From: Treponema sp.
GTDB taxonomy: Bacteria; Spirochaetota; Spirochaetia; Treponematales; Breznakiellaceae
Length of the DNA stretch: 33,516 bases
NCBI GenBank assembly: GCA_031255285.1
Contig: JAIRSU010000035.1
Span: forward strand, 1 to 33,516
Direction of reading: 5' to 3'
Positions 5,081-28,028 of this stretch are shown in pieces. Under the pieces are notes generated by a model. The model worked only from the letters and a program-made list of their open reading frames with translations. It was not told the DNA's origin and did not search any database. Every line of letters starts with the position of its first letter. The first letter of the stretch is position 1. The translations under genes and the position numbers were made by a program.

Positions 5081-5132
5081 ACTTACACTCCTTTTTGAAA
5101 TATATCAAATAAGCGCGGTTTTAGTAAAGAGT

Positions 5133-5232
5133 AATACGGGGTTGTTACGGAAATGCTTGGTGCCAGACACACGGAAATGGTACCTGCTTTCTAATAGCGC
5201 TCATTGTGAAGTATTAAAACAGACGAAGTCTG
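5133..5232 (+). repeat. Diverged REP-like intergenic repeat (RAYT-associated family)
   Basis: 5133-5170 (aatacggggttgttacggaaatgcttggtgccagacac) aligns with 33384-33423 just upstream of the transposase gene. 5203-5232 is an inverted copy of 13403-13432 (27/30 identical) and contains the hairpin cagac-gaa-gtctg. Confidence 0.75.
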
Positions 5233-5279
5233 GATTGCCTGCTGTTGAAAAAACAGCCCGAAAAGAGTATGATAGCCTT

Positions 5280-6657: not shown

Positions 6658-9600
6658 CTAGAAGATATTGAACCTCAATCCACCCGTTACGTGAAATACA
6701 GTAGTTGGCACGCTAACAACCGATGTATCGACATCCGTAGGCGTAAACCATAATTGCAATTCCGTGTAGAATGCAAATGCTCTGAATTGCTTTAGCTTCA
6801 CTTTAGGGAATTCCAGTTGCATAATCATGGCGGACATCACGGTCGGGGAACCGCTTTGAGTTTTTATGAAGTACGAGAAGTTTGCGCCTATTGCGACCGA
6901 CACGCTAAGCCATTCCCAATCATACCCTCCAAAAGAAGCAAAAGGTAGAGAATACACATTAGCGAGGAGCTTCAAACCAAAGACATCGCCCCCATAACGC
7001 ATCTCGTTGTCCGAAAACCATGACCACATCTCATCGGAGAACTGTCCGAACTGCACCTGTAGCTTCACGTTGTCATCAAAGAAGGTCAAACCCAATCCTA
7101 CGTCGTAGAAAGTCGCACCCCAGAAATGCCCATCAAAGTAAAGCCCTTGTATGAAGCCCGGCACCGCATACAAACCCTTATCACCTCGGCGCAGCGTATA
7201 AAGAACGGACTTGAGTGCGACATCATCGCTCGACAATGCCGTGAATTCAAGACTCTGGTTGTACCTCCCACCGGACTCTGGAGCAATTACCCTTATCTGC
7301 GGGGACGTCTTGTCGATTTGGATGAGCGTCCGTGAAACGGCTGTTTCGCCATTCGCCATAGTAGCCCGCAGAACAAGGTCATAGACACCTTCCCGCATAT
7401 CTATGTTTTCAATCCGGTAACGCCATCCGTCAGTAGGCTTACCGTCCGGAGCCTTGACCTTACGCCGCTTCACTTCGGTAAAGGTTATACCGTTGTCAAA
7501 ACTGATTTCAACAAGAGATGGCTTTTTCTGCGCTATCGCGGTTTTAATCTTTTTATCTGTCGTCTTGTCTTCCAGCGACTGCAAATCAATCTCATTCAAC
7601 ACGTAGCCCATACGCCCCGAGAGCCACGGACGCTCAAAGGCAAAGTCCCCCATTGTGAAGCTATCTATCGTTATCCATGCGCCGACTGCATTGTATTCGA
7701 TATTCCGCAACGGTGAGAACACTGCTTCTTTACCATCAAAGTCGCTCATGACCGAGAGTATATTCTTTCCATTCTTCAGCTTATCCTTATTTAAATGGAA
7801 ACAGAAGTAGCCGGTTTCTGTTACTTTGACAGTATCAATAGGAGTATCGTCAAGGTAGAGAGTAGCATAACTCGCGGTATCGGTACCGCCCAGGTAACCG
7901 TAGAGGTTGAATTCGCCTTGTATATATTCGCCGTTCAGAGGATAAAGCACATCCACGAAGTTACGCTGTATTTCCCGCGACAGTAGTACGTTCCGTGACT
8001 GGTGAGAGATGTTTTCAGCGAAATCTTCAGCCCAGACGTCAATGTTGTAAAGACCATCCGTCAGGGAGGAAAGGTCTAGGTCGGTGGTAAAGATAGAATC
8101 TGGTTCAATACTGATATTGGCCAGCTCGGGCGGAACCTCAGCGCCGTCCATGCTTCTGATGTTGATGTTCATTTCTTTCAAGCCCATACTATCTATGGCT
8201 CGTCCTGACAGGAACACCGGCCCCACAGAAGTCAAGCCGTCCATTGGAGACGCTATTTCGAGCTCCGGCGCGGTGTTATCTACGTTTATCATACCTGAAT
8301 ACATAGCCGAGATGTTGTATTTATCCCAGACCTTTATGAAGACCACGTGGGTGCCGTCCTGAAGAATTTTGGTATTAAAGATATATGACCACTCGGTGGT
8401 TCCCACGACATTGTTATAGGTATTTCCGTTGTCAATCGAGACCTGTACTGCTAATATATCGTTTTTATCTGAAGACACGCCTTTGAGTTCGAGTGTACCT
8501 CTTGATATAGCATCGAATGATGGCAGGGTCATGGCGGCTTTCGGCTCTTCAAGAGACACACGGAAGCCGCATTTGACCGGATCGCCTCGTATGCCGTAGA
8601 TGTCTTCAGGTATAACCGTAATCGAGTGTTCATTATCAACGAGGCTCAAAAGCTCGATAGGTATGGAGTAGGAATTATCGGCCGCAACCTCAATTTCCAC
8701 ATTATCATCAATGAAGTACCAAATCTTGGCGACTTTGTCATCGTCGTAGACGATGCCGCTTATCATGAAGTCTCTTGTAATGACTTCATTCTCTGACGGA
8801 AGATTTATCTGCGCTATAGGCTTATCCATCTCCCGGCTTATCAAGAATTCCCAGTTCTCCAGTACGGCGATATTGCCAGATGCGTCCGTGAATGTAAACT
8901 TCATGTCCGCGGAGAGCGGATGTTCATTAATACCTACCATCAAAGTCAAGAAAGACGACGTTATAAAGTATTCAGACATTTCCTGCTTAAACTCCTCGGC
9001 GTTGTCGTTGATTGCAGAAACAGAGTCTTCAGGCGGCATTTCGCCGCTCGGCGGGTCTTCATAGAATGAGGATACAAGCTTGCCTTTCTCCTCAACCAGA
9101 ATACCCAAGCGTATGATTCCATTTACCTCTTCACCAGAGAGCGGCACAATGAGGCGTGGAGACGGCGCTACCGTATCTTTGTTGACGTCAAACGACACGG
9201 ACGTCTCCCTCTGGGCAGAATCGCTTGCTCGAGCCAGAATACGAACAAGCCCATCTTCCACCGATGAAATATCTATACTCATCAAGACCGTATCATCGAC
9301 CCATTTGCCATCGCAGACGGACCAGGTTTTCCCCATGTCCAGACTGTATTCCACAGCGCCAAGGTTGGCGTCCCCAAACTTTAATTCGAACACAACCTCG
9401 CCCTTCACCCACGAACCGTGAACTTCGGGCGTAGTTATTTCGAGAGACGGATCCTCCGAGTCCACAAGAACAGTGTAGCTTTCTGTCGTATAAACCCTGC
9501 CGTCAACATCGGACATCGTAAGGGCAAAAGCATACTGCCCGTCTTCCGTGAACCTGACGTTGATCCGCTTATAGCTGTCGCTTTCATCAAATTGAACCGC

Positions 9601-12327
9601 TTCCAGAGAAATCGCCGCGTTCTCCTGCGTTACAGCGGCGTCGTTCAAAGGTCTGCCGTTATAGACGCCGGTAAGGACCGAGTCTTTATCCATAACAATA
9701 ACGCCGTTCTCAATAGTTTTAGCATTGAGCCAGCGGAAGCTCTGTTCGTCATAAGCCGCTCTGTCCGCAGGGCGCAAGACAAAGAACCCGCCTTCCAGAA
9801 ACGTTGCAAAAGACGGCTCAGTTTTAGAGGCTTTCGTGGAAACGTCGAGGCGGGTCGGGACAAAGCCAGGCGGCAGGTCCTGCGGCACCTTGACGCTTAT
9901 ATCCCACGTCGTCGTCTTTGGCACCTGTTTTACGACGCCGTTGACCTTATGACCACCAAAGTCAAAGACCGTGGACTGGAGGACCGCAGTTTGAGATGCA
10001 GTTTCCACAGTTGCAGTAAGCGTATAGGGCGTTTTGAGTCCGCCTTTGGGCATGATAAGACTCATACCCGGTATCCACTCTTGTCCATCAAGCGTATTTA
10101 TCGTAATTTTCAACGGCAGTTCCGTAGACCCTCCAGCCGTGAAGATAAAAGGCTGGGACTTATAGACAAAGCCCTCTTCACTCTCAACCACAACGACGAC
10201 GCCTGGCGGCGCACCGCCGAGTATCGCTTCAACCGCCTCGTCAGATACAGTGTCCGCCGAAGTGGACTCCTCCATTTCCAGCGTGGGCAGCTCATCAGCA
10301 ACTATAGTTTCCTCAAGAATCGGCTCCACGGCAGCTGCGCTTCTCGCCGCTATCTTTACCGCATTACCAATCAGTTCTACGCTATAAGCGCGGCGAACCT
10401 CGTCTGTTTCAGGTTCAAATCTCACGGTTTTTGCCTTTATACCCGGCAGGTAGCCCCAGAGCGGATAGTCCAGAGAAACGCTCTCCCCTTTGGTCCTCTC
10501 GTCGAAGAAGCGGATACCAGGCAACTCTGTTGCATGAACGTGAGGCTTGCTCAAGTCCTCAATTCTGATGATATCCTCAACAACCGCCTTTCTTTCGTAC
10601 ATATCAGACGCTTCGATATGGAGAACAACCTGTCCATAGCCCGTATCGGAAGGAAGCGGTATATCCTGTATGAATTCGCCGCTGGTTTTCGCCTTTACAG
10701 ACACCGTTACCGACTCACTATGTCCAAAGCGGTAGGAGACGCTCGTTAGGACACTGTCCGAATTCACCATGAGCGTGAACGATGGGTTTGTCTCGCTATT
10801 GATTTCCATACCCGAATAAAACGCGGACCTTTCCGCGGTCTTACCGTTTCCATGGACCACTTGCGTTATAGCTGCGGACGGCTTTTTGCCGCCAGAAACC
10901 AGGTTCTTGATTTCGGTTTTGGGACCCTCTACCCCGTAGATATCCTTCGCCCACACCGACAAAGAATGAATACCAGCCGGCGGGTCTTCGAGGAGGGTTT
11001 GGAACCAGCCCGTTGTAACAAGCTCAGTCGGAGCGCCATTATCCACAGAGTAGTAGACCGCGGCCACCCCGTCGTCGTCTTCGGCAAGCCCGCTCACACG
11101 CAGTTTCGCCAAACCTTCACCCAGAACGCCTACAGGAATCAGTGCGCCTTTACCGGAAGGTGGAGAGGCCAGAGCAGGCTCCGTCAGCGAAACCCGCGGC
11201 AGATCCGCGTCTCTATCAATGATCAGACGGCGCTTTGCCACGCCCACATTACCAGACACATCCACAGCGCGGATTTCCAGGTCTATGGTCTTGAGTTTCT
11301 GGTATCTTTCATCGCGGATGTCGAATACTTCGACCCACCAGGGATTACCTATGACCAAATCGAAGTCTCCCGTTTGGTCGCCGAGCTTCCACGAAACATT
11401 CGTGAGACCCACCGTATCTTTGACGAATCCGGCGACTGAAAACAAGCCGTTTACCGGATCCGCGGGATTTTCAGGATAGGTTATCTTAACGTCAGGCGCG
11501 GTATTATCAACGAATATGAGGAACATATAGGCGCCTTCTGTGTTCTGTTTGTCAACGGCTTTGAACCAAATAATCTCCGGTCCATCATTGAACCTCTTCG
11601 TATCCAATGACAGACTGAAGTCGACCGTTACCGCTTCTTTTTTCGCTTTGAAAGGAATATTGACGTATGATATGCCTTCGTTCATTGAATAAGACAATCC
11701 CGCAATACCATTACCATCGTATATCGCGCCTTTTATATTGATTTTACCATTTACCAGAGCGCCAAGCGTATGACTCTGAACTTCGATTTGGGGCTTGTTG
11801 CGGTCAAGACTCCACATAACAACAAAAGCCCTCCCCTTCAAGCCGTTCACATCGACGCCGTAAGCGCTTATCGAGTACCAGCCATCCTTGAGTTCAGACG
11901 TATCCAGATAGTATGACCAAAACTCCGTGCCTTGGGCGATGACAGGATGTTCCGGGTCATGGCTAAAGACGAGCTCCACACGGTCTACCGCGTCGTCGTC
12001 GGTACAAGTTCCCACGATATTAAGATTACTAGGAATACGCATATTTTGGCGCGGGTTTGTCATCCGCACTACCGGAAGGTCAGATTCAGGGTCAAGGAAT
12101 ATATTTTCAGGACCTGCTATAGACACATTGCCGCCCTTGTCGTGAGCTTCAATGAAGAAGTTGTACTTACCCGGCTTCTTATTTTCGATGTCTATGCGTT
12201 CCTTAAACCCCTCCATCGCGGCGACTTCGTGGGTTTCCACATCCTTTTTCCCTCCAGCCCACAACAGACTGAAAGAAGAAACCGTGAGTAATAAGACCGA
12301 CAACCGCGTTACTTTTCCATAAATCAT
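6658..12327 (-). CDS. Large secreted multi-Ig-like-domain protein with a C-terminal predicted outer-membrane beta-barrel
   Basis: 1889 aa. Signal peptide MIYGKVTRLSVLLLTVSSFSLLWAG. Repeated Ig-like motifs (DNTAPDVKITYP, DKTSPQIRVIAP, VDNTAPELEIASP). The C-terminal ~160 aa are alternating aromatic/hydrophobic strands ending GGLRFNIF with a terminal Phe. SD AGGAG upstream of ATG. Confidence 0.88.
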   Translation of the reverse strand: MIYGKVTRLSVLLLTVSSFSLLWAGGKKDVETHEVAAMEGFKERIDIENKKPGKYNFFIEAHDKGGNVSIAGPENIFLDPESDLPVVRMTNPRQNMRIPSNLNIVGTCTDDDAVDRVELVFSHDPEHPVIAQGTEFWSYYLDTSELKDGWYSISAYGVDVNGLKGRAFVVMWSLDRNKPQIEVQSHTLGALVNGKINIKGAIYDGNGIAGLSYSMNEGISYVNIPFKAKKEAVTVDFSLSLDTKRFNDGPEIIWFKAVDKQNTEGAYMFLIFVDNTAPDVKITYPENPADPVNGLFSVAGFVKDTVGLTNVSWKLGDQTGDFDLVIGNPWWVEVFDIRDERYQKLKTIDLEIRAVDVSGNVGVAKRRLIIDRDADLPRVSLTEPALASPPSGKGALIPVGVLGEGLAKLRVSGLAEDDDGVAAVYYSVDNGAPTELVTTGWFQTLLEDPPAGIHSLSVWAKDIYGVEGPKTEIKNLVSGGKKPSAAITQVVHGNGKTAERSAFYSGMEINSETNPSFTLMVNSDSVLTSVSYRFGHSESVTVSVKAKTSGEFIQDIPLPSDTGYGQVVLHIEASDMYERKAVVEDIIRIEDLSKPHVHATELPGIRFFDERTKGESVSLDYPLWGYLPGIKAKTVRFEPETDEVRRAYSVELIGNAVKIAARSAAAVEPILEETIVADELPTLEMEESTSADTVSDEAVEAILGGAPPGVVVVVESEEGFVYKSQPFIFTAGGSTELPLKITINTLDGQEWIPGMSLIMPKGGLKTPYTLTATVETASQTAVLQSTVFDFGGHKVNGVVKQVPKTTTWDISVKVPQDLPPGFVPTRLDVSTKASKTEPSFATFLEGGFFVLRPADRAAYDEQSFRWLNAKTIENGVIVMDKDSVLTGVYNGRPLNDAAVTQENAAISLEAVQFDESDSYKRINVRFTEDGQYAFALTMSDVDGRVYTTESYTVLVDSEDPSLEITTPEVHGSWVKGEVVFELKFGDANLGAVEYSLDMGKTWSVCDGKWVDDTVLMSIDISSVEDGLVRILARASDSAQRETSVSFDVNKDTVAPSPRLIVPLSGEEVNGIIRLGILVEEKGKLVSSFYEDPPSGEMPPEDSVSAINDNAEEFKQEMSEYFITSSFLTLMVGINEHPLSADMKFTFTDASGNIAVLENWEFLISREMDKPIAQINLPSENEVITRDFMISGIVYDDDKVAKIWYFIDDNVEIEVAADNSYSIPIELLSLVDNEHSITVIPEDIYGIRGDPVKCGFRVSLEEPKAAMTLPSFDAISRGTLELKGVSSDKNDILAVQVSIDNGNTYNNVVGTTEWSYIFNTKILQDGTHVVFIKVWDKYNISAMYSGMINVDNTAPELEIASPMDGLTSVGPVFLSGRAIDSMGLKEMNINIRSMDGAEVPPELANISIEPDSIFTTDLDLSSLTDGLYNIDVWAEDFAENISHQSRNVLLSREIQRNFVDVLYPLNGEYIQGEFNLYGYLGGTDTASYATLYLDDTPIDTVKVTETGYFCFHLNKDKLKNGKNILSVMSDFDGKEAVFSPLRNIEYNAVGAWITIDSFTMGDFAFERPWLSGRMGYVLNEIDLQSLEDKTTDKKIKTAIAQKKPSLVEISFDNGITFTEVKRRKVKAPDGKPTDGWRYRIENIDMREGVYDLVLRATMANGETAVSRTLIQIDKTSPQIRVIAPESGGRYNQSLEFTALSSDDVALKSVLYTLRRGDKGLYAVPGFIQGLYFDGHFWGATFYDVGLGLTFFDDNVKLQVQFGQFSDEMWSWFSDNEMRYGGDVFGLKLLANVYSLPFASFGGYDWEWLSVSVAIGANFSYFIKTQSGSPTVMSAMIMQLEFPKVKLKQFRAFAFYTELQLWFTPTDVDTSVVSVPTTVFHVTGGLRFNIF

Positions 12328-13517: not shown

Positions 13518-16500
13518 CTACTTCACGTAGTAAGAAATGCGGTAGTAGTCCCCGGAGACATAGGCGAAAGCCGCATCCCAGCTCCGCCCAGCTCCGGTAT
13601 CACACTCAACTTGGGTGCGCACATCGTTGACCACATAGCGGCCCGGCAGGGTAACGTGGTCCCAGCCGTTGCTGTCGAATACTGCGGGGTTGTGAATAGC
13701 CATCTTCAAGCCGGTACGGGAATCTATGCCGCCCTGGTCAAGATAAGAGACGACCGGGTTCCCGTCCGCATCAATTGCTATATCTGCCCATTTACCCACG
13801 TTGCCTACACTGTCAATAACAATCGGGTCGGCGAAGCTGTACGCGCCGGTCGTCCCCTGCGGTGTGCCTTTGACATAAACCAAGTCCCCGTTATCACTGT
13901 CCATGAACACGATGTGCATGACGTTTTGCCTGCCTGCCGTGGTATTTTTGTCGATACGCATGGAGACGTAACGTCCCGCGGTGGATATGCCCTGAGTCGA
14001 GACGTCCGCGGTAGTAAAGGTCGTCGCATTAGCCTGGTTACCGTACGCGTATCTCAGCTTTTCTGTACCAGCTGCTTTGTCCTGCACCAGGTAAACGATG
14101 ACCGGTATTCTCGTACTGTTCACGTCTATCGCGTTGTAATTACCCGCATCGGTTCCTGTTCCCACGGTCCGCGTTCCGTCAATTATTACACCATAGATAT
14201 TATTACCATTACCGGCTGCGTTTTTATCAGAGTTCCAGTACCGGAGCAATTGGTATTTAGCGTCATAATAGGTGATATGGCTCCTAGTGCCGTCATGCAC
14301 TATCCGCGGATTGATAAACTGGAGCAACATTTGATTACCGGTATTGTTAAACCGCTCTATCCACGTTCCTTTATGATTGGCTGCATTCGCCCTGGTACCC
14401 GGTATCAGCGTCAGTCCTCCCATATCATAGTTGGTCTGCATATAGTTTTCCAGCACCACCATATTCCATCTAGTATTGCTGGTATCCCATGCAATGTCCG
14501 TGTCCTCAGGCGGATCGGCGCTCCAGGTTATCGACATAGCACTGCCATTTCCGTTGTTCTGGCTGTAGTACGTGGGCATATTATTTCCACCTGTACCGCC
14601 ATTATTGTAGGCGCTCCCATTAATCAGGTAACTGCTCCATGAAGCCCACAACTCGCCGGTGGTCGGGTTAATCGTCATGGCGGGCTTGACTATGGAGCCG
14701 ACAACGGTCGGGTTCCTGAAGTGTCCCTGATTATTCCCGTTTTCAATATTATGGCTGTCAAACAGGTGTACATACCGATCGTCGGTCCAGAGGGCTGAAG
14801 AGTCGTTGCCTGCTATGGCTTCCTGACTCGTGTTCCAGCTGTTGGCGTTGTTGTTACGGTTATTCACCGCCTCAATGTTGCCAGCAGTGTACGTAACAAG
14901 TCCGCTGGTCGCGCCCGCGGGGACGTTGATGTAGTAATAAGTCCCGTTCGGCGTACCCGCTCCGGCATTCGCCGTGTCTATGATCACCAATCGATTCGTA
15001 TCCGTAAGGTTGAATCCTTCTACCTGTAATCTTTCATTGTCTCCGTTGCTTCGCCTGAAGCTGAACCAGCCGTTCTTGGAGCGCAGGACCGGCGCCTTGT
15101 CCGCGTCCGTCGTCCCGGTGCTATTCTTGAACCGCGTCAATGTCGTGATATAGGGCGCAAGGTCCAGCCCTATGCTGTTGTAGTCCGCGTTGTCTGTTGT
15201 ATTGGTTTTATCCGCACTGATTCCCTTCGCGGCTCCTGCAACCGCCGCGCCCGCGTTGTTCTGCGGTGCGGAAGCGTCCTCTGCCCGTACCGTAACCGTA
15301 ATGGCTCCTAAAGTATCTGTCGTTACGCTGCCTATGAGCGTCCCGGTATCCCACCGATACGTCCATTCAACCAGATGTCCGTCAATGCTCAATTCTTGGT
15401 ACAATCCCACGTCGGTTTCTACCAACCCCGCCGGGCGTTTGAGTTTTCCATCGGTGTCAGACTCAAGTATTTTGAGCCTAGCCGTACCCCCAAAGTCAAG
15501 GTAAAGCGCGGTGATGCGCTGGTCGTCCTGCGCCCGCCCTCTCAAGGTTACAACGCCGGAGACCGTGTCCACCGCAAAGCCGGTGGGATTAATAATGCCT
15601 GTGTCATTTCCATCCACGTCAAGTTCATGTTCCAGCCAGATGTTCGCCTTGTCTGTGGCTATGTCCGAACCATTACCTACGCCGTCCCGCGGCTCAATGT
15701 GTCCGGAAATCTTCCCGTCCCTCATGTAGAGCGAGCCTTTGGTCGTGTTCTGCACTGTTGTCGTGGACCCAGCCGTTACTACCGGGTTGACGCTGGCGGC
15801 AAGACTATTCTCCGCCTTGGGGTTCAGGTCGTAGAGCTGCGTTACCGGCGGCCGCGTGTCCGCATTCTCAACGCGCACCGCAAGCATCACAAAGTCGCTG
15901 AGCTGGTCTTCTTCACTCCCGCCTGTCAGGGTACTGTCCCACACCTTAACAGAGAAGTACCGGTCGCTGCCTGAAACAGCCACACCCGTACCTGTCAAGG
16001 TTATGTCTCCTGACGGGATGAAGGTAGAGCCTTTCTCCGGGTTGACAAGCCCCGTAAGGCTCGTCCAATTCGTGTTTCCCAATTCCTCAATGCGATATGT
16101 ACGTCCCATCACCAGTGTCCCGCCGTTCCTTACAACCGTGTACTCTTCTGAATCTGTTATCTTTCCGTTTCCAAAGTCTCCAGTATCGAAGTCCACGTCC
16201 ACGCTGATAGTGTTATCGGCGCCGGCGTCTCCCTCCTCTTTGATAGAAGTCTCGGTATATTCAAAGACAGATGCACCATTGAGAGAAGTAGCATCCACGT
16301 CTTTAGTCGCCACAAAAGGCGCCCCGACCGCGTTATCCTTCGCACCGACTGTCTTGAAGTCAAATCCTGCATTGGTCTGCGCGATGGTGTATATCTTACC
16401 CTTTGTGAGGGTCGTTGCTACACTCGTGGAGCGCGTGAGGTACTGTACGCGGTAATGCTTCTGGCCGTTGCCCCCGTTTGTGTTGAGTCCTATACGGAAC

Positions 16501-19500
16501 ATACTGTTCCGCACCGTGAACTGTGTGTCCAGATATCTGTCGCTTATGGTCTTTGTTCCCGCATTCGTAAAGTCTGTGCCAACCAACGGGGTGGCAAGGG
16601 ACAGAGACGTGATTGACGGCGCGTTATTCTGGAAGTAAACGTCCTGTTCCGCGTAGGTCCTGTTGCCCGCGCGGTCCTCAACTATGTAATGCACGGTTAT
16701 CTTACCATCGGCTATCTTGGTCGAGTCGAAAGTTGCGCCCCATACCTTTTCCGAGCCTGCATTGTCGTACCAGTATTCAACAAAGTTGTCACCGTCCCTT
16801 TCGCCTGTCGCGGACTCGTCGCTGTCAATCACAATGCCGTAGCCACTATACGAAGGAGTCGCAGCATACTTAGGATACTTCACGTCCGCCGGATCGGCGA
16901 GCATCGTCCCGTTCCACCGGCGTGCACTGACGGTCGTAAACGAGCTTGCATCATCTGTCGTAACTGCATGGGTTATTGCGCCGCCATCCTTCGTCCCATA
17001 GGGTGCATAGAAAGTGGTGTTTCCGCCCACAGTTCGGCTGAAGTACACAACAACGGATTTCAAGCCTTGAATACTGCCTGAAGGAGGCGCATCGTTCGCG
17101 GTTCCCCGCAAGGTGTAGTCCCCGACCGCAGTAACGGCCGCGGTATAATCGGCGCGTGGGAAGTAGTTGTCAATCTGGAAGCTCATAGCAAAGCTCGCCG
17201 AAAGAGGCGGAGACGCATCATCCATTGTAGCCAAAGTCAACCCGTAAGTTCCGGTGGTATCCTTAAAGAGCTCATCGCTGTTTATCGCCATATTTACGTG
17301 GTACGTGAAGTAGCCGCTGTCGTCTGCCGCGTAGAGCATATTGTCTGCCGTTTCATTCTGCCCCGCAGTAAAGGTCTTGGATTGTCCATCCGCCGCATTG
17401 ACGCGGTAGTATCTCTTCCCCGCTGTGAGGCTCTGCCCGGCGCTAATGATATTGCCCGCGTCGACTTTTGCGGTAACGGTGAGTTTATCGATTATCATAC
17501 CGTCCGCATCCTTAACGGAAATCGGCGCCGCCGTTCCTGTCGGTTGAACCGTAATATCAGAAATCCCGTCAGAGTCCTTCACCTCGGCCGTGATGGTAAC
17601 GGTCTTGGAAATCTGCATCTGGTACGTGTAATCCTCCGGGGTTCCGTCCTGCGGCGTTACCTTGATATTCTCTATGATGGGTACATTACTGCTGAACCTG
17701 AGAATATGGCGGGTGATGTTGCCGTTCACGCTGCTTTGTTCGTCTATGTAATTACCTTCGCTTTTCGTATCACGCGCGAACACCTCAATGTAGACTGTCC
17801 TTTCAGTATCACTCCCTGACGGGTTCAGCTTGCCGTTAGCGTTGAGGTTAATATACCAGTTCACGAATCCGCTGCCTGGGCTCTGAATAGTAGCCGCGTG
17901 CCAGCCTACGCCCGGCTCCCTATGCAAGTCAGAGCTTGTCGTCCCCGCATAGGTTGTATCGGCCGCGGGATTGCCCGTCCCGTCAGTCCAATCGTACCAC
18001 TTATCGCCCGCCGAATCTGCGTCGTCTGCCATCCATTCGGAGAAGCTCCAGTTCTTGTATCCTTTTGTCTTGTCGGCAGGGTCCACCCAGACGTCCGTCT
18101 CGTCGTGCGCCGCGCCGCTTACGCGCACCCACACGCTGCTTACGATGTTGTTGTCCGATGACGTCCCGGTGAGCCTGACCGTACCGCCGACTGCTTGATT
18201 GCCGTCCGGCGTGAGGATTGTGCTCGTGGCTTTGTCCATGTGCGGGTCAACGGTGATGATGAACTCGCAAGGGGTCGCATTGCCCGCCAAGTCAAATATC
18301 AACACGTTGACGGGAATATCCCATACATTGTTTTCAGGCGCGTTGTCAGTCAGTTCAGCCTCATTTCCATCGGTATATTCAACAAGCGCATCGTTGCTTG
18401 ACGAGGTATACCGGTAGCGTTTCACGCCATATCTCTCCCCTGCCCCATTTGCGCCGTCATAGGCGGCTAGCCCGTTGCTGTTCACAAAGTACTTGACTTC
18501 GTTAAAGGCAACGTTCCATGCGTATACGCCGCCGCTCCACCTTATTGAAAGGTTTCCGTAGTTCTCTTCCGCCACGTTTCCTGAGTCTAGGTTGGTATCT
18601 TTCCACTCGCGAACGGTACCACTGTCCACGGGTGTGGTCTTCGTCGCTATGAACGACGTTCCTATCGCCGCGCCTGTCGGCGCGCCGACATCCGTCCAGT
18701 CGTAACTGCCAAGGTTCGTTATGGTATAGGCTTTGCCTGTAGTAATCGCCGTAGTCTCGGCTAGGTCAGGTTTGCCTATCTGGTAGAAGACCTTGGACAC
18801 AGAGTTGTTATCGCTTGCGACTCCGCTCACGGTGAGGCTACCAATGACGCGGTTAGGAGCGCCGGGTTGTTTCACGGTAACCTCATGAGGTTGGGTTGTA
18901 TCAAGGGCGAAGTTCAACTGTCTGGTCGTCGTGTGTCCCGCCTTGTCGTATGCTGTAACGTTGATGGTCTGCTGCCCTTCTGCAAGTGCATCTACCGGCA
19001 TGGTTATTGACCACGCACCATCTGCGTCTAACTGCGGCGTCTCTCTTTGTGTCGAAGAGTTGAACCAAACCTCAAGCTTCTCAACGCCGTTGGCGTCTGA
19101 CGCAGTTCCTTTCAAGGGAACACCCCCGTTGTAGAATTGCTTTATCGTCTCAACGGTCAATTCCGGGTTTACGGTGTCCAGAACAAAGTATATCCATTCG
19201 GGTAAACCTGTTCCATTGACTGTCTTGTTGGGTGCGTCCGCATCGCCGGTCTTTTTCGCCCTATCTTCTGCGGTTACCTTGATGCGGTAGACTCCATCTG
19301 ATAGGCTCAAGCCGCCGGTCCCGCTTCCCAATACGATGTTCCATGTGGGCGCGGCAGTAAGCGGTTGGTTTTCTGCTCTATTCTCCCAAGCATCCCCGTT
19401 TTTCGCCTGTAGGGTGTATGTCAGAGACTTGAGTCCGCTTGTTACGTCTGATGTTGAACCCATTATCCTTGCGGACCCATCCCCAAAGATAAAGGGAGCG

Positions 19501-22500
19501 TCTTCTGTGTTGGCGCTCAATTGATCGCCCATGTTGAGGAAATTGTTTTCAGGAGGAGTCGTATCTTTGACGAAGGTCCACGCCGTCTGCGCGTTGTTTT
19601 GTGCAATGTCCGTTGCGTTAAGGGTGAAGGTATGGGAGCCGTCCGCCAGCGCCGTAAATTGCACCTTTGTTACCGTAATGGTAAAGTCTTTCCCGCCTTC
19701 GGTCTCATTGCTTGGCGTAAGGGAGATGCCCGCGACGCCTGTAAGGTTCAGTGTGTCGATATTCGCATCCGCGATGCTCCCCTTCAAGGTGAATACGACG
19801 TCGTTGTCGTTGTTTATACCCACGACGCTGTAGGCTGTTCCTCCATTATCATTGCCGCTCGCGTCACCTGCGAAGGTATTCAGGTTAAACAGGGGACCTT
19901 CCCGGTCAAGGTAGAAAGCTATATCCGGCTTTGCGGTTACGTTGTCGAGTGCGTCATATACGCGGATGCTTACGCGGCGAACCCCGTCCTGTACGGGATA
20001 AGTGGAATTCTCACTATGATAAGGAGAGCCGCTGTCTGGGTCATTCTTTGCTGGTATGGGTATGACCCAACTGGTATTCTTCGCGCCACCACTGCCTAGT
20101 TTGCCGCTTCCAGACCGCCATAAAGTCTTAGACGTGTCGTCTATAGCGTTCTCGTCATACGGGTCTGTGTCAAATCGATACTCAAACCGCACAATACCTG
20201 AATACTCATCCGTGAAGGTACCCCGCAGGTTTGCGTCCGTATGGCGAATAATATCGGTAATGGTTCCCTTGCTTTCCGCGTAAACTTCAAGCGCCTTTGT
20301 ATGAATCTCCGCAGGGGTCGCCGAGGCGTCCAAACCGTGCGCGGTCCAGCCAGTATAAGCGCTGCTGTCCGTGCTGTCGTCCGCTACTTCAAGCATAAGT
20401 TCCCTGCCAAGTACTACTTCTTTCGAGAGGTTTGAGAACGCTACGGCAGGACCTTTAACGTCTTTGTTGAATACTGTCTGCACAGTTCCGCTGTGCTCCT
20501 GCGTACCTACCTTGTCTACGGCTTCCACAATCACGGTGTAAGGACCGTCCGGCAAGTTAGCGAATGGGGTGCCGCTTGTCCATCCCCATTGCCAGTCCTT
20601 GACGGATGCTGCATCCGGGGTTAACGCCGCTTCGTCAAACTCGGTGGACGCAACTACCGTACCGGCGCTGTCCTTTACCGAGAGCGTGAGTCTCAAGGGG
20701 TTGGTTTCAGTCAGGCTTCCTTTTATAGACGGCGCCTCCTTGACGGTCGCGGCTATTTCATTGTCCGTCCCGACCGCGGTAATGGCTGGTACCGGCGGGG
20801 TCTTGTCTAGCGTGAATTGCACATACGGCGAGTTAAAGAGCTTATCCCCTTCGCCAACGCTCACTTTCTTTGCGCCGTCATCTGTCGCTTTTAGGCGTAT
20901 ATAATATACGCCGTCAGACATAGACTCGGGTAATCCCGTGGACCACTTGATTTCACGCGCACCAATTCTCGTCCGTATCAGCTCAACTCCTGTCAGGCTC
21001 CACTCCCCGAGTACGCCGCCGTTATCAGCCGCAAACTCAACGACAAGGCTATTCTCGTCTGCAAAGCCGTCATCGTCAACCGCTACTCCGCTCAAAATAC
21101 CGCCGGCTATAAAGTTTGCCGAAGCGTCCTCAACGTTCAAGTTGTCAAACGTCCATGTCGGCTCATCGGTGGACTGATTGACGATAAAGGAATAGTCCTT
21201 ATCCTCTGCGGGTCTGTAAGCGATAACATCTATATTGCCTGCTTTATCCATAGCGCTGATATAGAGCGTATACGCGGATTCGTTTTCAGTCCCTGTTTGG
21301 TCAAAGGCTTCATTATTAGTCGTGTCGATTAAGGGCTGCGCGGAGCGGCTGAAAGCCGTCCCGCCGGCGGTTTCCCATACAGGGGCCTCAGTAGCTCTGG
21401 GCAGTATCCAGTACTGCAAGGGGTTCCCCGCGGCAAGCCCGTTCTCGTCAGACGCGGAGACCGTGAACTGAATCACGCCGTTTACATAGTTCAGAACGCC
21501 TGAACCTAAATCACGGGTCGCCAGCTCAGTGAATTTTGTTACGTCAATCGAAGGCGCCGTGCTGTCAACAGTTATCGTAACAGTCTTGGACACAACTCTG
21601 CCGCCCGCATCTGTTACGGTGATAACATAATCGTATATCCCGTCCTCCAGATGTCCGCCTATCGTATCGCCGCCCCTTGCCAAGTCATTCTGGTTTAACG
21701 CAACGCCCCAAACCTTTTCCACGCTGTACCCGTTGATAGACGGATTCCGCGCGTTCAATACCCCGGTATACGAACCGCCGATAGTGAGTGTATTTCCGTG
21801 CTCATCCGTGTAGGTATCTCTATTGGCAGAATCAGCGAAGTGGTCGCTCACCGTATAGGAGTTGAAGACCTCGACCGAGTTGTCGCCGTTTATCCGCTTG
21901 ATGACGACGCCCGCGAGCCTGCCTGCCTCATCATCGGTATCATTCGAATTAAGTATATTGCTGTCAAACGCGGTGAACTTGATTGCAAATTTATCATTTG
22001 CATATTTCTCTGTCGTAATGCCTGTGTAATTGTCGTCGAGAATCTCCGGATTAGAGGCGTCTACATAGAAGTTCTGCACTTTCGCGGCGCTTCTGTTGCC
22101 CAGAACGTCTTCCGCAAACGCAGTGAATTTCAATTCGCCTTCAATAGAGCCTATATTAACGCCGTTCTTGAACCATTGGGACGTCCCGTCCGCTTCCTTC
22201 CAATCGGCGCTTATTGCGCCAATTGGAGCGTCATAGCCCGTTGCGCCTACACGGAAGTACACCTTGGATACACCCGCGCCATTGGTCCCATCATCTACAG
22301 TACCGGTAACGGTGATAGTGGGGGAGTTAAACGGCTCGTCTTCACCGGGCGATGTTATCGCTACGATAGGACCGCTTTGGTCCACCGTGATGGTCTGGGT
22401 CAGCCTTACGGTATGGTTTAAGCCTATGCTCTCGTCCTTAACTTCAATGGTATAGACATAAGCGCCCTCAGGATTAGTAAGCGGCGTGGACAGCCCTTCT

Positions 22501-25500
22501 GTCGATGGGTCACGGGGCAAGCCTGCAAGATTCACGGTCCATAACTTACCGTTTGTCTTGACAAGCTCTTTGCCTGTAAGCGTTATCTCTTCGCTGTTCT
22601 GTTTCACGACCAGAGAAGCCAATACATTGGTGTCTGTTACCTCTCCGTAGAGGGTGAAGGTCTCTTTAATAAAGGACTTGTCCGCAAGCGCTGTGGCGTG
22701 GTTCGTATCCGAAGTCTTGTGAATTCCTAACTTTGATATGTCTGGCACGGCACGGTCCACACCGAAAGTGAGAGTAGACGCGGCTGTGTTTCTGTCCGGA
22801 GTCTCCCCCGCCCACGTCCCCGACCAAGTAGGCGCACCACCGTTCCAATTCCCAGCGTTCCTATCAGGACCATTACCCGCCGCATCGTAGCCTATCACAT
22901 AAAGGACGTTCTCTCCTTCCTTGACCGCCGCATCGTCGTTCAATTCCATCATAACCGACCACGTATTGCCGCTTATAACAGCCTCCCGCCAGCCGGCCGC
23001 ATGAGCCGCCGCTTCTTTGCTTGCATCAAGCGGAGACGTCGGTACCGCAGGTACCTGCGTAACGCCCGGCTTCATAATGAAGTAATACACCTTCTGTAGG
23101 TCTTTTTGGCTGTTATCCCTCAAAGAACCGCTGAATGATGTGGTAACGCCTTCAAACCAGTTGTTTACGACAGGCTGTTTTATGGTGACAGTCGGCGCTT
23201 CATCGTCAAACTCAACTTTGAAATCGTCTATCATCTCCTTGTGGAATCGGTCGCGTACGATGATTCTTACGGTCTTGTTGTCGTTGCTTATACCTTTTAC
23301 CTCATACGTCCAGTTCCATTCTCCGGTGCTCGCATCATAATTCGCAGCTTTTAGAGTGATTTCCTCCGCAGTACTGGGATCAGGGTCTCTGATGATGAGA
23401 CGAGGCGACAGAGTCGGATCCTTATTACTATTGTCCGAAACAGTTCCAGTCAGGGTAAATGTATTGGATTGATAAGAATTGCGCACAGGCGCTGTAACGC
23501 TAATCTTGGGATCATCCGTATCAACTGCAAAGCAGAATGGACCAACCTTTGTTGTCTTTGCGGGCGTTACCTCGAAATCGCCGCTTGTGGAGTCGCTGAC
23601 CTCAAGTGTGAAGAAGTAGATACCTTCCGCAAGGTCTGCGTCTATTCCGCCGTTAAAAGCCCCGCCAAGAGTTTGACTGCTCGCATTGAAACTCACGGTT
23701 CCTCCGCCTGAAAGCCCGTTCAACTCAATGGTCTTCTTGTCGCTTTCCTGATCGTTTTCTCGCCAAATAACAAGTTTGGGCTTTACATTCGTTACATCAA
23801 TCGCATCGTCGTCGGTGAACGTCCCGCGTATCTTGACATCTGCCCCAAATAGATTGACAGGGGTTTGTCCCATCAAGTCGTCTACAGTCACAATAGCTGT
23901 ATCAATATCGATAAACGCAATAATCGGGTCGTCAGTACTCTGGTCAATGCGGAGCGTTGTTTTGGAATAGCCAAAGTTTCCTGCACGGTCCTGCCCCGCG
24001 ATATAGAGATAGACGTCCGTCTTATCGGTAAGTTTCTGTGTGTCAATGTACAGGGACTTGGGCTCCGAGGCTTTTACCATTACACTGCCGCTCTTGCCGT
24101 CATTGTAGTTCAGGTTCAGGGTATCCACAAACACCGCGCCTTCGTCAGTATTATTGTAAATCGCTTCCGCGTCCGTGAGGTCTCTGCTTGCTGATATGAG
24201 ATACTTGATTTGCCGCTTGGGATAATCTCCGTAGTTATCTTCGCCGATGCCCTCGTTATCAGAGGCGTTAAAGTTCACGCGCACAATGCCATTCACAGTG
24301 TAGACTCCGCTTGATTCGGCGACAGTCGGAGTTATGCCGGTAACTTCGATTTCAGGCGGGGTTACGTCTACCGCTATCGTAAAAGTCTGTGTCGCGGTCT
24401 TGTTCGCTATATCTTTCACCAGAATCGTATATTCGTAACTGCCGCTGCCAAGCTCTCCCGCACCGGTTCCGGCTTTTTGCATCAAAGTTGCACCCCACAG
24501 CTTCGTCCCGTTATAGCCGCTTTGTGTGCCGTATCCTGCGGCTGAAAAGTCGCCTTTGTAATATCCACTCTTCACCAGAACAGGCGTAACAGGCTCGCTT
24601 ATCCCGCCGCTCTTCCGTATTATGGAAACCGCGTCGGTGAGATTCAAGGCGTTGCTGTCAAACACACTGAACTTCAAGGTGAACTCTCCATTCACATAGC
24701 GGGTTGCGCCGACTTGAACAGCATTCTCCCACAGAACGTCGCCTATTTCCGGGTTTTCGGTATCAACCTCGAAACGAGTGGACTTTACCACTCCTGTATT
24801 ATGTACAGCGTCCCGCGCAAACACGTGAAGATACTGACTCCCCTGTTGCGTAGACGATAGCGTCTCTACAGCGCTCCACTTGGATCCGCCGTTAGCCAAC
24901 TTCCACCCATTGAGTGAGCTATCGTAATCCACGGGCTGAAGCGGCGCGGCTGCCGATTGGGTTATCTGATAGAATACCTGCTCTACCCCACTTGCGGAAC
25001 CTACAGGGCCGTCGACGGACGTACCATTTATGGACAAGTCGGCGCTCATCACCGAAGATACGGCAGGCGGATTCCCCTTGTTCTCAACTGGAAACTTTAT
25101 CAAATCCACGACCGGCGCTTCACGGTCAATCTGCATCGTGAGCTGTCCTTTAGCCGTCCTGCCGAAGCGGTCCTTGGCTTCCAGTGTAATCTGCCGATTT
25201 GTCTCATCAATCACTGTCTCTTGGTCGAACGTAATGGTCCAGTCGCCGTTCCCATTAGGCGCGACTGCTATATAATCCTCTTCATTCGGCTCTTCTCCAA
25301 GCGCATGAGGCTTACTTATCTTCAAAGCCGCGTTGTTTGCTTCTACCAGCGTACCTTCTATAGTGAGGACAGAAGCCGGGTCCACAAAGGCGTTATCCAG
25401 CGGCGCCGCTACAGAGATTTCCGGGTCTCTCAAATCCACCGCAAGGTAGTAGATATCGGTTTCCTTTGTTACCGCTCCAAGTCCATTCTTCGCAGACGCC

Positions 25501-27575
25501 AGGTCGCTCATCTCCAATGTGTAATAGTAACCCCCTTCCGGCAGCGATAGATGGTTCTCTTCCGTTCCCCCGCCTATCTCTTCACCCGCTTCGTTCCTCG
25601 CCATACCCATCTGGTCAAGGGTTATATCGAACTTTACAGACTTGCTGCCGGTAAGCCCGGGAACCGTATAGGTATATTTATCCGCAGACACGGGGGTCTG
25701 ACCTTTCTCTTCCTTCCAAATAGAGAACCGCAAACCGCCGCCTGTGTCTACATCCACATGGAGCGCATCATCGTCTTCAATCGTACCCCCCAGACGCGCA
25801 TTAACGCTTCCGAACACATTCGGTGTCTGGTACGGCGTCTCTCCTAATTCTGCAAAGCTACCCACCGGGTCGTTGGTAAACCTAAACGTAGGATAATCCG
25901 TTGACTGGTCAATATTCACCACCCTCTCGACAAACGCCGTATTCCCCGCCTTGTCCTGGGCTGTCAGATAAATGTAGAGCGGACTATTATCTCCATAGAG
26001 CGCCTGTCCATTGTCAGGGCGGATATACGCTGTATTTACGGTCATCCGCTTGGCAGAATTGATTGTAACAGGACCATTAGACGGATAGCTGTCAAACCAC
26101 TCGCCCTTCTCGTATAGTTCATCTGCGGAACCGGTTTGCGGCGTCTGATTCACATAGTATTTCAAGCGCCGTTTCCCATCGTCTTCCAAGCCCAGCCCGT
26201 TATCGTCTGTCGCCGCAAAGTCTACGAGTACCTTTCCGTTCACGTATTCGCGATCAGTATCCTCATCCCTTGAGGATGTGGGCGCTACGTTGGTAATCTC
26301 GACCGTCGGCGCCGCCGTGTCAATGATCACATTCGCATAGCTCGCCGCCGCTCTGTCGGCCCTGATACTTACCGCTTCCACATCAAAGTCGTAAGTATCG
26401 TCAGGAAATATAAATGTCCCCCCCCCCCCGCCGCTTGCGCCGTTTACTACCGCAAGATTTGCGAGGGCTGCTCCAGGTGTTATCGGGAGACTCTCAAACA
26501 CGACCTTGCGGTCCCCTTCTTCCACATCAAGAGTGATAGATGCCCACGGAATCCCGTATTTCACCCCCTCCTTGGTGAAGGTGAGGTTTGTGGAGTATTC
26601 ATTAAAGACGTCTACATATCCAGCATGAATCCCCACCGAATGGGTTACCTCAGCTCTTATGGTAAACGCCCCGTTCTGCTGTTGATTCGCCAGACGAGTA
26701 ATCGTTATCTTGGGCGCCTCGGCGCTGGTCGTTATATTCATCAGCGCGGAACCTGTCTCTGGATAGGTAGCTTCCAATCCATTAATGTCTACTATCTGGA
26801 ACCTGATATGGTAGAGACCGCTCTCCATATATTCCTTTGTGTCGAAAGTTTCATTACCGCTGTTGGTCGTGTAATACCGAAACGCGAAACTCTTCCCCCC
26901 CTCATTAGGCTCCGGGACAGGAGGCCGCATCCAGTCAGGCTCGGCTTCGCCGTCTTTCCACAGCTTAAGCAGGGGATACCCCGGCTCAACGCCCTGCAAG
27001 TCAGACGCAACCCCGGAGAGAAAACCTGAATTCAGCACCTCAGGCGCTTTCTCTGGATCTGTTTCAAGATTCTCCCAATCCAGTTTCGGGATGAGCAGCT
27101 CGACAGTCGGCAGACCGTTCTTCACCGTATATACAAGATCGTCGGACTCAAAAGGCGGGCGTCCAGACTCGTCGCGCGCCCTTATCTTGAAAGAATACTG
27201 CCCGTCAACGAGATTCGTTATCTCACGCGTATCTATAGAGACGTGATACAGCTTGTCGGCTGCATTATATATCGCAGGTCTCCAGGGATCATCCTTTATC
27301 TCGCCGTTGATATAATCGGTAAGTTCACTCGCAAGCACGATGGACACCGGGTTGTTTTTGGCGAGTCCCACGTCGTCCTCAGCCTTTATCTTGAATAACT
27401 GCTCGCCCGTGATAAAACTGCTCGGCAGAGGTTCTACTATTGAAGCGGTCGGCGCTTTTGTGTCAACCACCTTACCCAGACCAACATTTCCCAACCCTGC
27501 ATTCTCACAGGTCAAAAGGAAGAATACCAAAATAGCGATTCCCGCTATCCAGCCTCTGAAAGATCTGCTCTCCAT
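13518..27575 (-). CDS. Giant (4685 aa) surface lipoprotein with many bacterial Ig-like repeats and a beta-propeller-like C-terminal region
   Basis: One uninterrupted 14-kb ORF. Lipobox in GWIAGIAILVFFLLTCENAG. Repeated DxxAPxxxIxxP...VNGxxxVxFxAxDxxGL...AGNxxxxxxxVxIDQSTDxP modules. SD AAAAAAGGAG upstream of ATG. C-terminal blocks such as IPVIVYLVQ..LRYAYG / MHIVFMDSDNGDLVYVKG / KWADIAIDADGNPVVSYLDQ. Confidence 0.92.
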   Translation of the reverse strand: MESRSFRGWIAGIAILVFFLLTCENAGLGNVGLGKVVDTKAPTASIVEPLPSSFITGEQLFKIKAEDDVGLAKNNPVSIVLASELTDYINGEIKDDPWRPAIYNAADKLYHVSIDTREITNLVDGQYSFKIRARDESGRPPFESDDLVYTVKNGLPTVELLIPKLDWENLETDPEKAPEVLNSGFLSGVASDLQGVEPGYPLLKLWKDGEAEPDWMRPPVPEPNEGGKSFAFRYYTTNSGNETFDTKEYMESGLYHIRFQIVDINGLEATYPETGSALMNITTSAEAPKITITRLANQQQNGAFTIRAEVTHSVGIHAGYVDVFNEYSTNLTFTKEGVKYGIPWASITLDVEEGDRKVVFESLPITPGAALANLAVVNGASGGGGGTFIFPDDTYDFDVEAVSIRADRAAASYANVIIDTAAPTVEITNVAPTSSRDEDTDREYVNGKVLVDFAATDDNGLGLEDDGKRRLKYYVNQTPQTGSADELYEKGEWFDSYPSNGPVTINSAKRMTVNTAYIRPDNGQALYGDNSPLYIYLTAQDKAGNTAFVERVVNIDQSTDYPTFRFTNDPVGSFAELGETPYQTPNVFGSVNARLGGTIEDDDALHVDVDTGGGLRFSIWKEEKGQTPVSADKYTYTVPGLTGSKSVKFDITLDQMGMARNEAGEEIGGGTEENHLSLPEGGYYYTLEMSDLASAKNGLGAVTKETDIYYLAVDLRDPEISVAAPLDNAFVDPASVLTIEGTLVEANNAALKISKPHALGEEPNEEDYIAVAPNGNGDWTITFDQETVIDETNRQITLEAKDRFGRTAKGQLTMQIDREAPVVDLIKFPVENKGNPPAVSSVMSADLSINGTSVDGPVGSASGVEQVFYQITQSAAAPLQPVDYDSSLNGWKLANGGSKWSAVETLSSTQQGSQYLHVFARDAVHNTGVVKSTRFEVDTENPEIGDVLWENAVQVGATRYVNGEFTLKFSVFDSNALNLTDAVSIIRKSGGISEPVTPVLVKSGYYKGDFSAAGYGTQSGYNGTKLWGATLMQKAGTGAGELGSGSYEYTILVKDIANKTATQTFTIAVDVTPPEIEVTGITPTVAESSGVYTVNGIVRVNFNASDNEGIGEDNYGDYPKRQIKYLISASRDLTDAEAIYNNTDEGAVFVDTLNLNYNDGKSGSVMVKASEPKSLYIDTQKLTDKTDVYLYIAGQDRAGNFGYSKTTLRIDQSTDDPIIAFIDIDTAIVTVDDLMGQTPVNLFGADVKIRGTFTDDDAIDVTNVKPKLVIWRENDQESDKKTIELNGLSGGGTVSFNASSQTLGGAFNGGIDADLAEGIYFFTLEVSDSTSGDFEVTPAKTTKVGPFCFAVDTDDPKISVTAPVRNSYQSNTFTLTGTVSDNSNKDPTLSPRLIIRDPDPSTAEEITLKAANYDASTGEWNWTYEVKGISNDNKTVRIIVRDRFHKEMIDDFKVEFDDEAPTVTIKQPVVNNWFEGVTTSFSGSLRDNSQKDLQKVYYFIMKPGVTQVPAVPTSPLDASKEAAAHAAGWREAVISGNTWSVMMELNDDAAVKEGENVLYVIGYDAAGNGPDRNAGNWNGGAPTWSGTWAGETPDRNTAASTLTFGVDRAVPDISKLGIHKTSDTNHATALADKSFIKETFTLYGEVTDTNVLASLVVKQNSEEITLTGKELVKTNGKLWTVNLAGLPRDPSTEGLSTPLTNPEGAYVYTIEVKDESIGLNHTVRLTQTITVDQSGPIVAITSPGEDEPFNSPTITVTGTVDDGTNGAGVSKVYFRVGATGYDAPIGAISADWKEADGTSQWFKNGVNIGSIEGELKFTAFAEDVLGNRSAAKVQNFYVDASNPEILDDNYTGITTEKYANDKFAIKFTAFDSNILNSNDTDDEAGRLAGVVIKRINGDNSVEVFNSYTVSDHFADSANRDTYTDEHGNTLTIGGSYTGVLNARNPSINGYSVEKVWGVALNQNDLARGGDTIGGHLEDGIYDYVITVTDAGGRVVSKTVTITVDSTAPSIDVTKFTELATRDLGSGVLNYVNGVIQFTVSASDENGLAAGNPLQYWILPRATEAPVWETAGGTAFSRSAQPLIDTTNNEAFDQTGTENESAYTLYISAMDKAGNIDVIAYRPAEDKDYSFIVNQSTDEPTWTFDNLNVEDASANFIAGGILSGVAVDDDGFADENSLVVEFAADNGGVLGEWSLTGVELIRTRIGAREIKWSTGLPESMSDGVYYIRLKATDDGAKKVSVGEGDKLFNSPYVQFTLDKTPPVPAITAVGTDNEIAATVKEAPSIKGSLTETNPLRLTLSVKDSAGTVVASTEFDEAALTPDAASVKDWQWGWTSGTPFANLPDGPYTVIVEAVDKVGTQEHSGTVQTVFNKDVKGPAVAFSNLSKEVVLGRELMLEVADDSTDSSAYTGWTAHGLDASATPAEIHTKALEVYAESKGTITDIIRHTDANLRGTFTDEYSGIVRFEYRFDTDPYDENAIDDTSKTLWRSGSGKLGSGGAKNTSWVIPIPAKNDPDSGSPYHSENSTYPVQDGVRRVSIRVYDALDNVTAKPDIAFYLDREGPLFNLNTFAGDASGNDNGGTAYSVVGINNDNDVVFTLKGSIADANIDTLNLTGVAGISLTPSNETEGGKDFTITVTKVQFTALADGSHTFTLNATDIAQNNAQTAWTFVKDTTPPENNFLNMGDQLSANTEDAPFIFGDGSARIMGSTSDVTSGLKSLTYTLQAKNGDAWENRAENQPLTAAPTWNIVLGSGTGGLSLSDGVYRIKVTAEDRAKKTGDADAPNKTVNGTGLPEWIYFVLDTVNPELTVETIKQFYNGGVPLKGTASDANGVEKLEVWFNSSTQRETPQLDADGAWSITMPVDALAEGQQTINVTAYDKAGHTTTRQLNFALDTTQPHEVTVKQPGAPNRVIGSLTVSGVASDNNSVSKVFYQIGKPDLAETTAITTGKAYTITNLGSYDWTDVGAPTGAAIGTSFIATKTTPVDSGTVREWKDTNLDSGNVAEENYGNLSIRWSGGVYAWNVAFNEVKYFVNSNGLAAYDGANGAGERYGVKRYRYTSSSNDALVEYTDGNEAELTDNAPENNVWDIPVNVLIFDLAGNATPCEFIITVDPHMDKATSTILTPDGNQAVGGTVRLTGTSSDNNIVSSVWVRVSGAAHDETDVWVDPADKTKGYKNWSFSEWMADDADSAGDKWYDWTDGTGNPAADTTYAGTTSSDLHREPGVGWHAATIQSPGSGFVNWYINLNANGKLNPSGSDTERTVYIEVFARDTKSEGNYIDEQSSVNGNITRHILRFSSNVPIIENIKVTPQDGTPEDYTYQMQISKTVTITAEVKDSDGISDITVQPTGTAAPISVKDADGMIIDKLTVTAKVDAGNIISAGQSLTAGKRYYRVNAADGQSKTFTAGQNETADNMLYAADDSGYFTYHVNMAINSDELFKDTTGTYGLTLATMDDASPPLSASFAMSFQIDNYFPRADYTAAVTAVGDYTLRGTANDAPPSGSIQGLKSVVVYFSRTVGGNTTFYAPYGTKDGGAITHAVTTDDASSFTTVSARRWNGTMLADPADVKYPKYAATPSYSGYGIVIDSDESATGERDGDNFVEYWYDNAGSEKVWGATFDSTKIADGKITVHYIVEDRAGNRTYAEQDVYFQNNAPSITSLSLATPLVGTDFTNAGTKTISDRYLDTQFTVRNSMFRIGLNTNGGNGQKHYRVQYLTRSTSVATTLTKGKIYTIAQTNAGFDFKTVGAKDNAVGAPFVATKDVDATSLNGASVFEYTETSIKEEGDAGADNTISVDVDFDTGDFGNGKITDSEEYTVVRNGGTLVMGRTYRIEELGNTNWTSLTGLVNPEKGSTFIPSGDITLTGTGVAVSGSDRYFSVKVWDSTLTGGSEEDQLSDFVMLAVRVENADTRPPVTQLYDLNPKAENSLAASVNPVVTAGSTTTVQNTTKGSLYMRDGKISGHIEPRDGVGNGSDIATDKANIWLEHELDVDGNDTGIINPTGFAVDTVSGVVTLRGRAQDDQRITALYLDFGGTARLKILESDTDGKLKRPAGLVETDVGLYQELSIDGHLVEWTYRWDTGTLIGSVTTDTLGAITVTVRAEDASAPQNNAGAAVAGAAKGISADKTNTTDNADYNSIGLDLAPYITTLTRFKNSTGTTDADKAPVLRSKNGWFSFRRSNGDNERLQVEGFNLTDTNRLVIIDTANAGAGTPNGTYYYINVPAGATSGLVTYTAGNIEAVNNRNNNANSWNTSQEAIAGNDSSALWTDDRYVHLFDSHNIENGNNQGHFRNPTVVGSIVKPAMTINPTTGELWASWSSYLINGSAYNNGGTGGNNMPTYYSQNNGNGSAMSITWSADPPEDTDIAWDTSNTRWNMVVLENYMQTNYDMGGLTLIPGTRANAANHKGTWIERFNNTGNQMLLQFINPRIVHDGTRSHITYYDAKYQLLRYWNSDKNAAGNGNNIYGVIIDGTRTVGTGTDAGNYNAIDVNSTRIPVIVYLVQDKAAGTEKLRYAYGNQANATTFTTADVSTQGISTAGRYVSMRIDKNTTAGRQNVMHIVFMDSDNGDLVYVKGTPQGTTGAYSFADPIVIDSVGNVGKWADIAIDADGNPVVSYLDQGGIDSRTGLKMAIHNPAVFDSNGWDHVTLPGRYVVNDVRTQVECDTGAGRSWDAAFAYVSGDYYRISYYVK
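26418..26429 (-). repeat. Homopolymeric (G)12 tract on the coding strand of the giant lipoprotein gene
   Basis: The plus strand reads tgt-CCCCCCCCCCCC-gccgcttg. The coding strand is GGC GGG GGG GGG GGG ACA, encoding ...GASGGGGGTFIF.... Confidence 0.95.
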
Positions 27576-28028
27576 AAGAAACTCCTTTTTTTCTCTCTTT
27601 ACCGCGGATATTAAGAATAAAGAACTCTCAACATCTCACAACGCTTTCTGTATCTATATCCTTTGAAAAATCTATCTATGATTTAGAAACTATCATGCAG
27701 AATAACCCATTTCATTCAATTCATGGCTTCTCTTCGGTATTTCAAATGCCGTACAGCAGCGCCCTCAGGAACGGACTTTCCCAAAGCGCCTGTTTTGCGG
27801 ACGTCTCTTCATGACAAACAATGAGCGGGGAGGTGGGGCATATAACCCTCACATATAATCGACGTGAAAATAACTATTTGTACTGAACATACTTTTCCCA
27901 GATACGCCATATTTCTTAAAGTTTCCTCTTTTTGTATCAACTTATATCAATATACAAAGCCGCACTATCTCTATATGACCATGAGTGTACAAAAGAATGC
28001 AAGGGTTGTCAAGTGCGGTTTCTTCTTT

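Follow-up and report, generated by a model that had tools for sequence, protein, structure and literature searches.

A run of 12 Gs within a giant predicted lipoprotein gene of a gut Treponema is best read as a phase-variation switch that operates by slipped-strand mispairing, an interpretation that sequence comparison makes highly probable. In the window (the whole 33,516-nucleotide stretch of DNA that was analysed), the run is written as C12 on the plus strand, corresponding to G12 in the coding sense (26418–26429, minus strand). It forms codons 383–386 (four GGG codons, in the context GGC-GGG-GGG-GGG-GGG-ACA) of a 4685-codon open reading frame on the minus strand (13518..27575). The coordinates and the reading frame bear out the earlier note, which had placed a 12-G run at about codon 383 of 4685.

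The effect of tract length was evaluated by in silico translation of alleles carrying 7–17 Gs. The long frame was kept by G9, G12, and G15 only, and the G12 allele as assembled encodes the 4685-aa protein in frame (ON), while all other lengths in the series yielded products of 389–403 aa, or about 8% of the protein. Loss of one G (G11) led to a TAA stop (26369..26371, minus strand) and a 401-aa product, and gain of one G (G13) led to a TGA stop (26401..26403, minus strand) and a 391-aa product; the stop positions and the loss of about 92% of the protein that had been worked out before were right. A change by one or two units therefore destroys the frame. In addition, the uninterrupted repeat within the ORF is longer than expected by chance, as no run of 12 was found among dinucleotide shuffles of the window and a G run of at least 12 was reached in 8 of 2000 synonymous-codon shuffles within the gene.

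In the proposed mechanism, slipped-strand mispairing at replication would add Gs to the tract or remove them. Lengths of 9, 12, and 15 would keep the Ig-like lipoprotein in frame, and other lengths would bring in a stop codon at most about 20 codons further on, so that only an N-terminal stub is made (OFF). Slippage is probably frequent, ON and OFF states presumably occur together in the gut population, and the benefit may be a variable surface in encounters with phage, other microbes, or the host.

The nature of the gene product was assessed using a Pfam scan, the N-terminal sequence, and orthologues in three genomes of the genus. The scan of the 4685-aa protein identified Ig-like domains only (Big_13 and Big_7) and no Tpr-like domain. 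The N terminus, MESRSFRGWIAGIAILVFFLLTC-ENAG, resembles a lipoprotein signal with Cys23, and a heuristic lipobox test recognised a lipobox-like LLTC motif at residues 20–23 (27507..27518, minus strand) behind a hydrophobic stretch; the corresponding motif in the orthologues is LLTC or LLAC. The gene is thus predicted to encode a surface or interaction factor, as expected of a contingency locus, and the label of surface lipoprotein given to it in the earlier note agrees with the lipobox-like N terminus and the Ig-like domains. An AlphaFold model of residues 290–440, made to see whether the tract falls in a loop, was uninformative (mean pLDDT of 40). A promoter-like TTGACA-17-TACACT lies between the upstream gene and the leader (27984..28012, minus strand); about one such site is expected by chance in the region, making it weak alone, and the orthologue L033 carries a similar TTGACA-17-TATACT. 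Nearby, the window contains a second giant Ig-like gene (6658–12327; 1889 aa, Big_7) without a long homopolymer, and a FliI/T3SS-type ATPase gene (4839–6632), probably flagellar, lies next to the giant surface genes but on the other strand.

The 4685-aa gene also contains a G7 run (26895–26901, minus strand). The run exists as described before, but its suggested role as a weaker switch was not supported: runs of at least 7 were reached in about 65% of the synonymous shuffles of the gene, and synonymous changes interrupt the G7 run in all three orthologues. The G7 run was therefore judged to be due to chance and was ruled out as a second switch.

The orthologues are L031, L032, and L033, with about 60–76% identity, and close relatives of the gene were found in MAGs labelled 'Treponema sp.'. 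In L031 (genome G011; about 74% amino acid identity), an uninterrupted G12 occupies the identical codon, with a 4-aa indel just before the tract and a differing codon just after it relative to the window. Tract length, which the earlier note proposed to compare across related strains, is 12 against 12 between these two species. No homopolymer is present at this site in L032 and L033, and the coding tract is therefore found in two of the four orthologues, 12 long in both. Between the window and L031, 55% of four-fold sites are identical, 12 of the 23 GGG codons elsewhere in the gene are kept, and retention of all four tract GGG codons has p about 0.07. Because GGG is kept at so many other sites, the conservation of one tract alone is not strong evidence. 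The site also bears on the explanation that the tract is part of an ordinary, stable Gly-rich linker in which five glycines happen to use GGG. The linker of L032 is Gly/Glu-rich here without a homopolymer, as such an explanation allows, but the rarity of runs of 12 in the synonymous shuffles, the tract at the same codon in L031, and the genome-wide length mode of 11–12 make it very unlikely.

The leader of the gene contains an interrupted tract, CCCCACCTCCCC (27827..27838, minus strand), which reads as a decayed second tract since L031 has C12 (at about −250) and L033 has C14 (at about −187) at the homologous site. An intact promoter-region homopolymer of the T. pallidum type is thus absent from the window, whereas the leader tract is intact in L031 and L033. 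L032 carries another tract, C15, at about −481. At least one G/C tract of at least 12 was found within the gene or up to 500 bp upstream in all four orthologues. The leader site varies with the species, being C12 or C14 in some and decayed or lost in others, and the place of the tract moves among the four orthologues.

Tract loci were further compared between the window genome (G000) and G011, counting as matched those non-repetitive loci for which the other genome had a tract no farther than 250 bp from the corresponding position. Thirteen loci were matched in position where 1.2 were expected (Poisson p about 3e-10), and tract length differed at 9 of the 13. In a HAMP/nucleotidyl-cyclase gene (L066/L175), the G12 allele of G000 is open through the tract, while the G10 allele of G011 meets a stop directly after the tract, with the rest of the conserved protein encoded in another frame; judging from the frames, the cyclase looks ON in G000 and OFF in G011. 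Moreover, a GH18 enzyme (L075/L169) and a pectate-lyase lipoprotein (L114/L149) each carry an in-frame tract in both species within the same linker and at different positions, and these shifted tracts look like repeated recruitment. Together with the G12 of L031, the leader tracts of the orthologues, and the genome-wide class of tracts, these differences in length and frame support the contingency-tract reading put forward in the earlier note.

The window genome is MAG-like, 79% complete, and totals 2.15 Mb in 131 contigs, and we infer a termite host from the style of the sample code and the kind of relatives. It contains 60 G/C runs of at least 9 and 29 A/T runs, and the other 11 genomes of the genus contain 36–180 such G/C runs each. 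G/C run lengths in G000 are bimodal, with a trough near 8–10 and a mode at 11–12, whereas A/T lengths fall monotonically; the distribution in G011 is likewise bimodal, with a mode at 12. Run lengths were counted in regions chosen around runs of at least 9 and counts below 9 cover those regions alone, but the dip at 9–10 relative to 11–12 is unaffected by this choice. MutS is present in all genomes of the genus, ruling out loss of mismatch repair as the cause of the tract.

The fragmented assembly (131 contigs) raises the question of whether the tract arose in assembly or sequencing, for example as dark-cycle poly-G or through a collapsed length. In G000, half of the tracts (30 of 60) lie no more than 600 bp from a contig end, as against an expected 7%, and the C/G runs of 18–34 at two contig ends (L095:61-117 and L106:4955-5014) are probably artefactual. 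However, the window tract sits between unique coding flanks at a distance of 7 kb from the end of the window, keeps the long frame, and is single copy, with no second contig of another length in its own MAG. An independently named MAG also has the tract at the same codon. Furthermore, in G049, a relative assembled as a single contig of 4.06 Mb, G runs of 15–21 form a class of their own and a few runs are longer still, and a short-read artefact is disfavoured because a single-contig genome carries G runs of at least 15. An artefactual tract is accordingly extremely improbable, although the exact length of 12 could be off by one base. In G000 (e.g. L073, L078, and L092; L076/L086; L077/L087/L094), several tracts also sit in dispersed, nearly identical repeats that vary in tract length from copy to copy (L073 G11, L078 G12, and L092 G11).

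The bases flanking the tracts follow a rule that is new and unexplained. Among 38 non-redundant G runs of at least 11 in G000, the 5′ base is C in 35 (p = 7e-13, background 0.36), and the base before it is a purine in 35 of the 38. Summed over the 12 genomes of the genus, the 5′ base is C in 558 runs, T in 347, and A in 41, as against C in 333, T in 342, and A in 249 at the 3′ side, which was counted from reversed-pattern matches (5′ vs. 3′, p about 1e-44) and is nearly free of bias. The 5′ flank bias is absent from short G runs, and other genera of the family show different biases. The window tract (AGC-G12-A) fits the pyrimidine rule.

So strong a 5′ rule suggests a context-dependent mutational process, and the tract might be a by-product of a lineage that expands G runs, tolerated by the linker and of no adaptive use as a switch. 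The presence of 36–180 tracts per genome, including C-terminal and intergenic ones lacking an obvious target, is in line with this idea. By contrast, tract positions recur between species far beyond chance, and the moved tracts in L075/L169 and L114/L149 suggest selection on the gene and not on the site; any slipping tract would, moreover, switch the gene regardless of its origin. We consider a mere by-product unlikely and phase variation by slippage the better account of the G12 tract. More speculatively, and at a level we would rate as possible rather than probable, termite-gut treponemes may possess a slippage phasome that ranks among the largest known, in which tract length is held at 11–12 Gs and tracts arise or persist through a context-dependent process requiring a pyrimidine (mostly C) immediately 5′ of the run. 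The same gene would then be made switchable repeatedly, and in the course of species divergence its tract would shift between leader and coding sequence.

Tract genes encode glycosyltransferases, a hexapeptide transferase, a solute-binding lipoprotein, GH18 and pectate lyase enzymes, sensor kinases, and an AraC regulator, classes typical of phasomes. Others encode a cytidylyltransferase, further lipoproteins, and the HAMP/nucleotidyl-cyclase protein. Lipobox enrichment among tract genes was about two-fold and weak (pooled p = 0.03). Some tracts are C-terminal or intergenic without an obvious target. Leader or promoter-side poly-C tracts stand upstream of many genes in these treponemes. The intergenic tracts, read in the C sense, are followed directly by AT-rich sequence, and some have −10-like hexamers at an offset of 1 or 13–14; a single promoter architecture was rejected, as no one spacing was found. 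Small paralogous gene families, one comprising L065:645-1310, L085:2860-3813, and L105:2628-3422 and another comprising L067:505-1290 and L077:5122-5883, carry poly-C about 150–480 bp upstream of each start.

Poly-G contingency tracts are known in T. pallidum at tprE/G/J, tprL, and tp0126, and they occur inside ORFs there too (PMC7864442). The present case resembles that system in its homopolymeric G, the related spirochete lineage, and the involvement of outer-surface genes. In contrast to the characterised T. pallidum switches, which are promoter-located and transcriptional, the intact tract here lies within the reading frame for a giant Ig-like lipoprotein, in which Pfam detects nothing Tpr-like. 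Campylobacter jejuni NCTC11168 has 29 poly-G/C loci of at least 7 (PMC4965091), and shares intragenic G/C tracts (about 8–11 there), the frame-switch logic, and many surface-structure genes. Unlike in C. jejuni, MutS is present here, each genome contains 36–180 tracts of at least 9 with a modal length of 11–12, and the bacterium presumably lives as a symbiont of insects. Promoter-side tracts are known from the poly-C promoters of Bordetella fim. Those at the promoters of Neisseria porA and opc are discussed in PMC7864442. The poly-C on the leader or promoter side of many treponeme genes, and of the 4685-aa gene in two orthologues, is similarly placed and may act in a similar way, but the window leader tract is interrupted. 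The literature searched, in which subscription journals were thinly covered, yielded nothing on phase variation in termite treponemes.

The poly-G/C contingency mechanism is known; what is new is its scale in uncultured insect symbionts, which, as far as genome sequences indicate, seem to have an extensive and so far undescribed set of phase-variable genes. Slippage-driven phase variation has been studied mainly in pathogens under immune pressure. If our reading is true, each symbiont genome holds dozens of switches on surface proteins, glycan enzymes, and sensors, and contact with phage, protists, or other microbes can select the same bet-hedging as immune pressure. ON/OFF heterogeneity would then be hidden in metagenome assemblies of these symbionts. 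With tracts turning over among the four orthologues, how contingency loci arise and decay can be tested directly. Outside the genus, a genome from another genus of the family (G019) contains 304 G/C runs of at least 9 in 2.3 Mb, the top count among 99 genomes.
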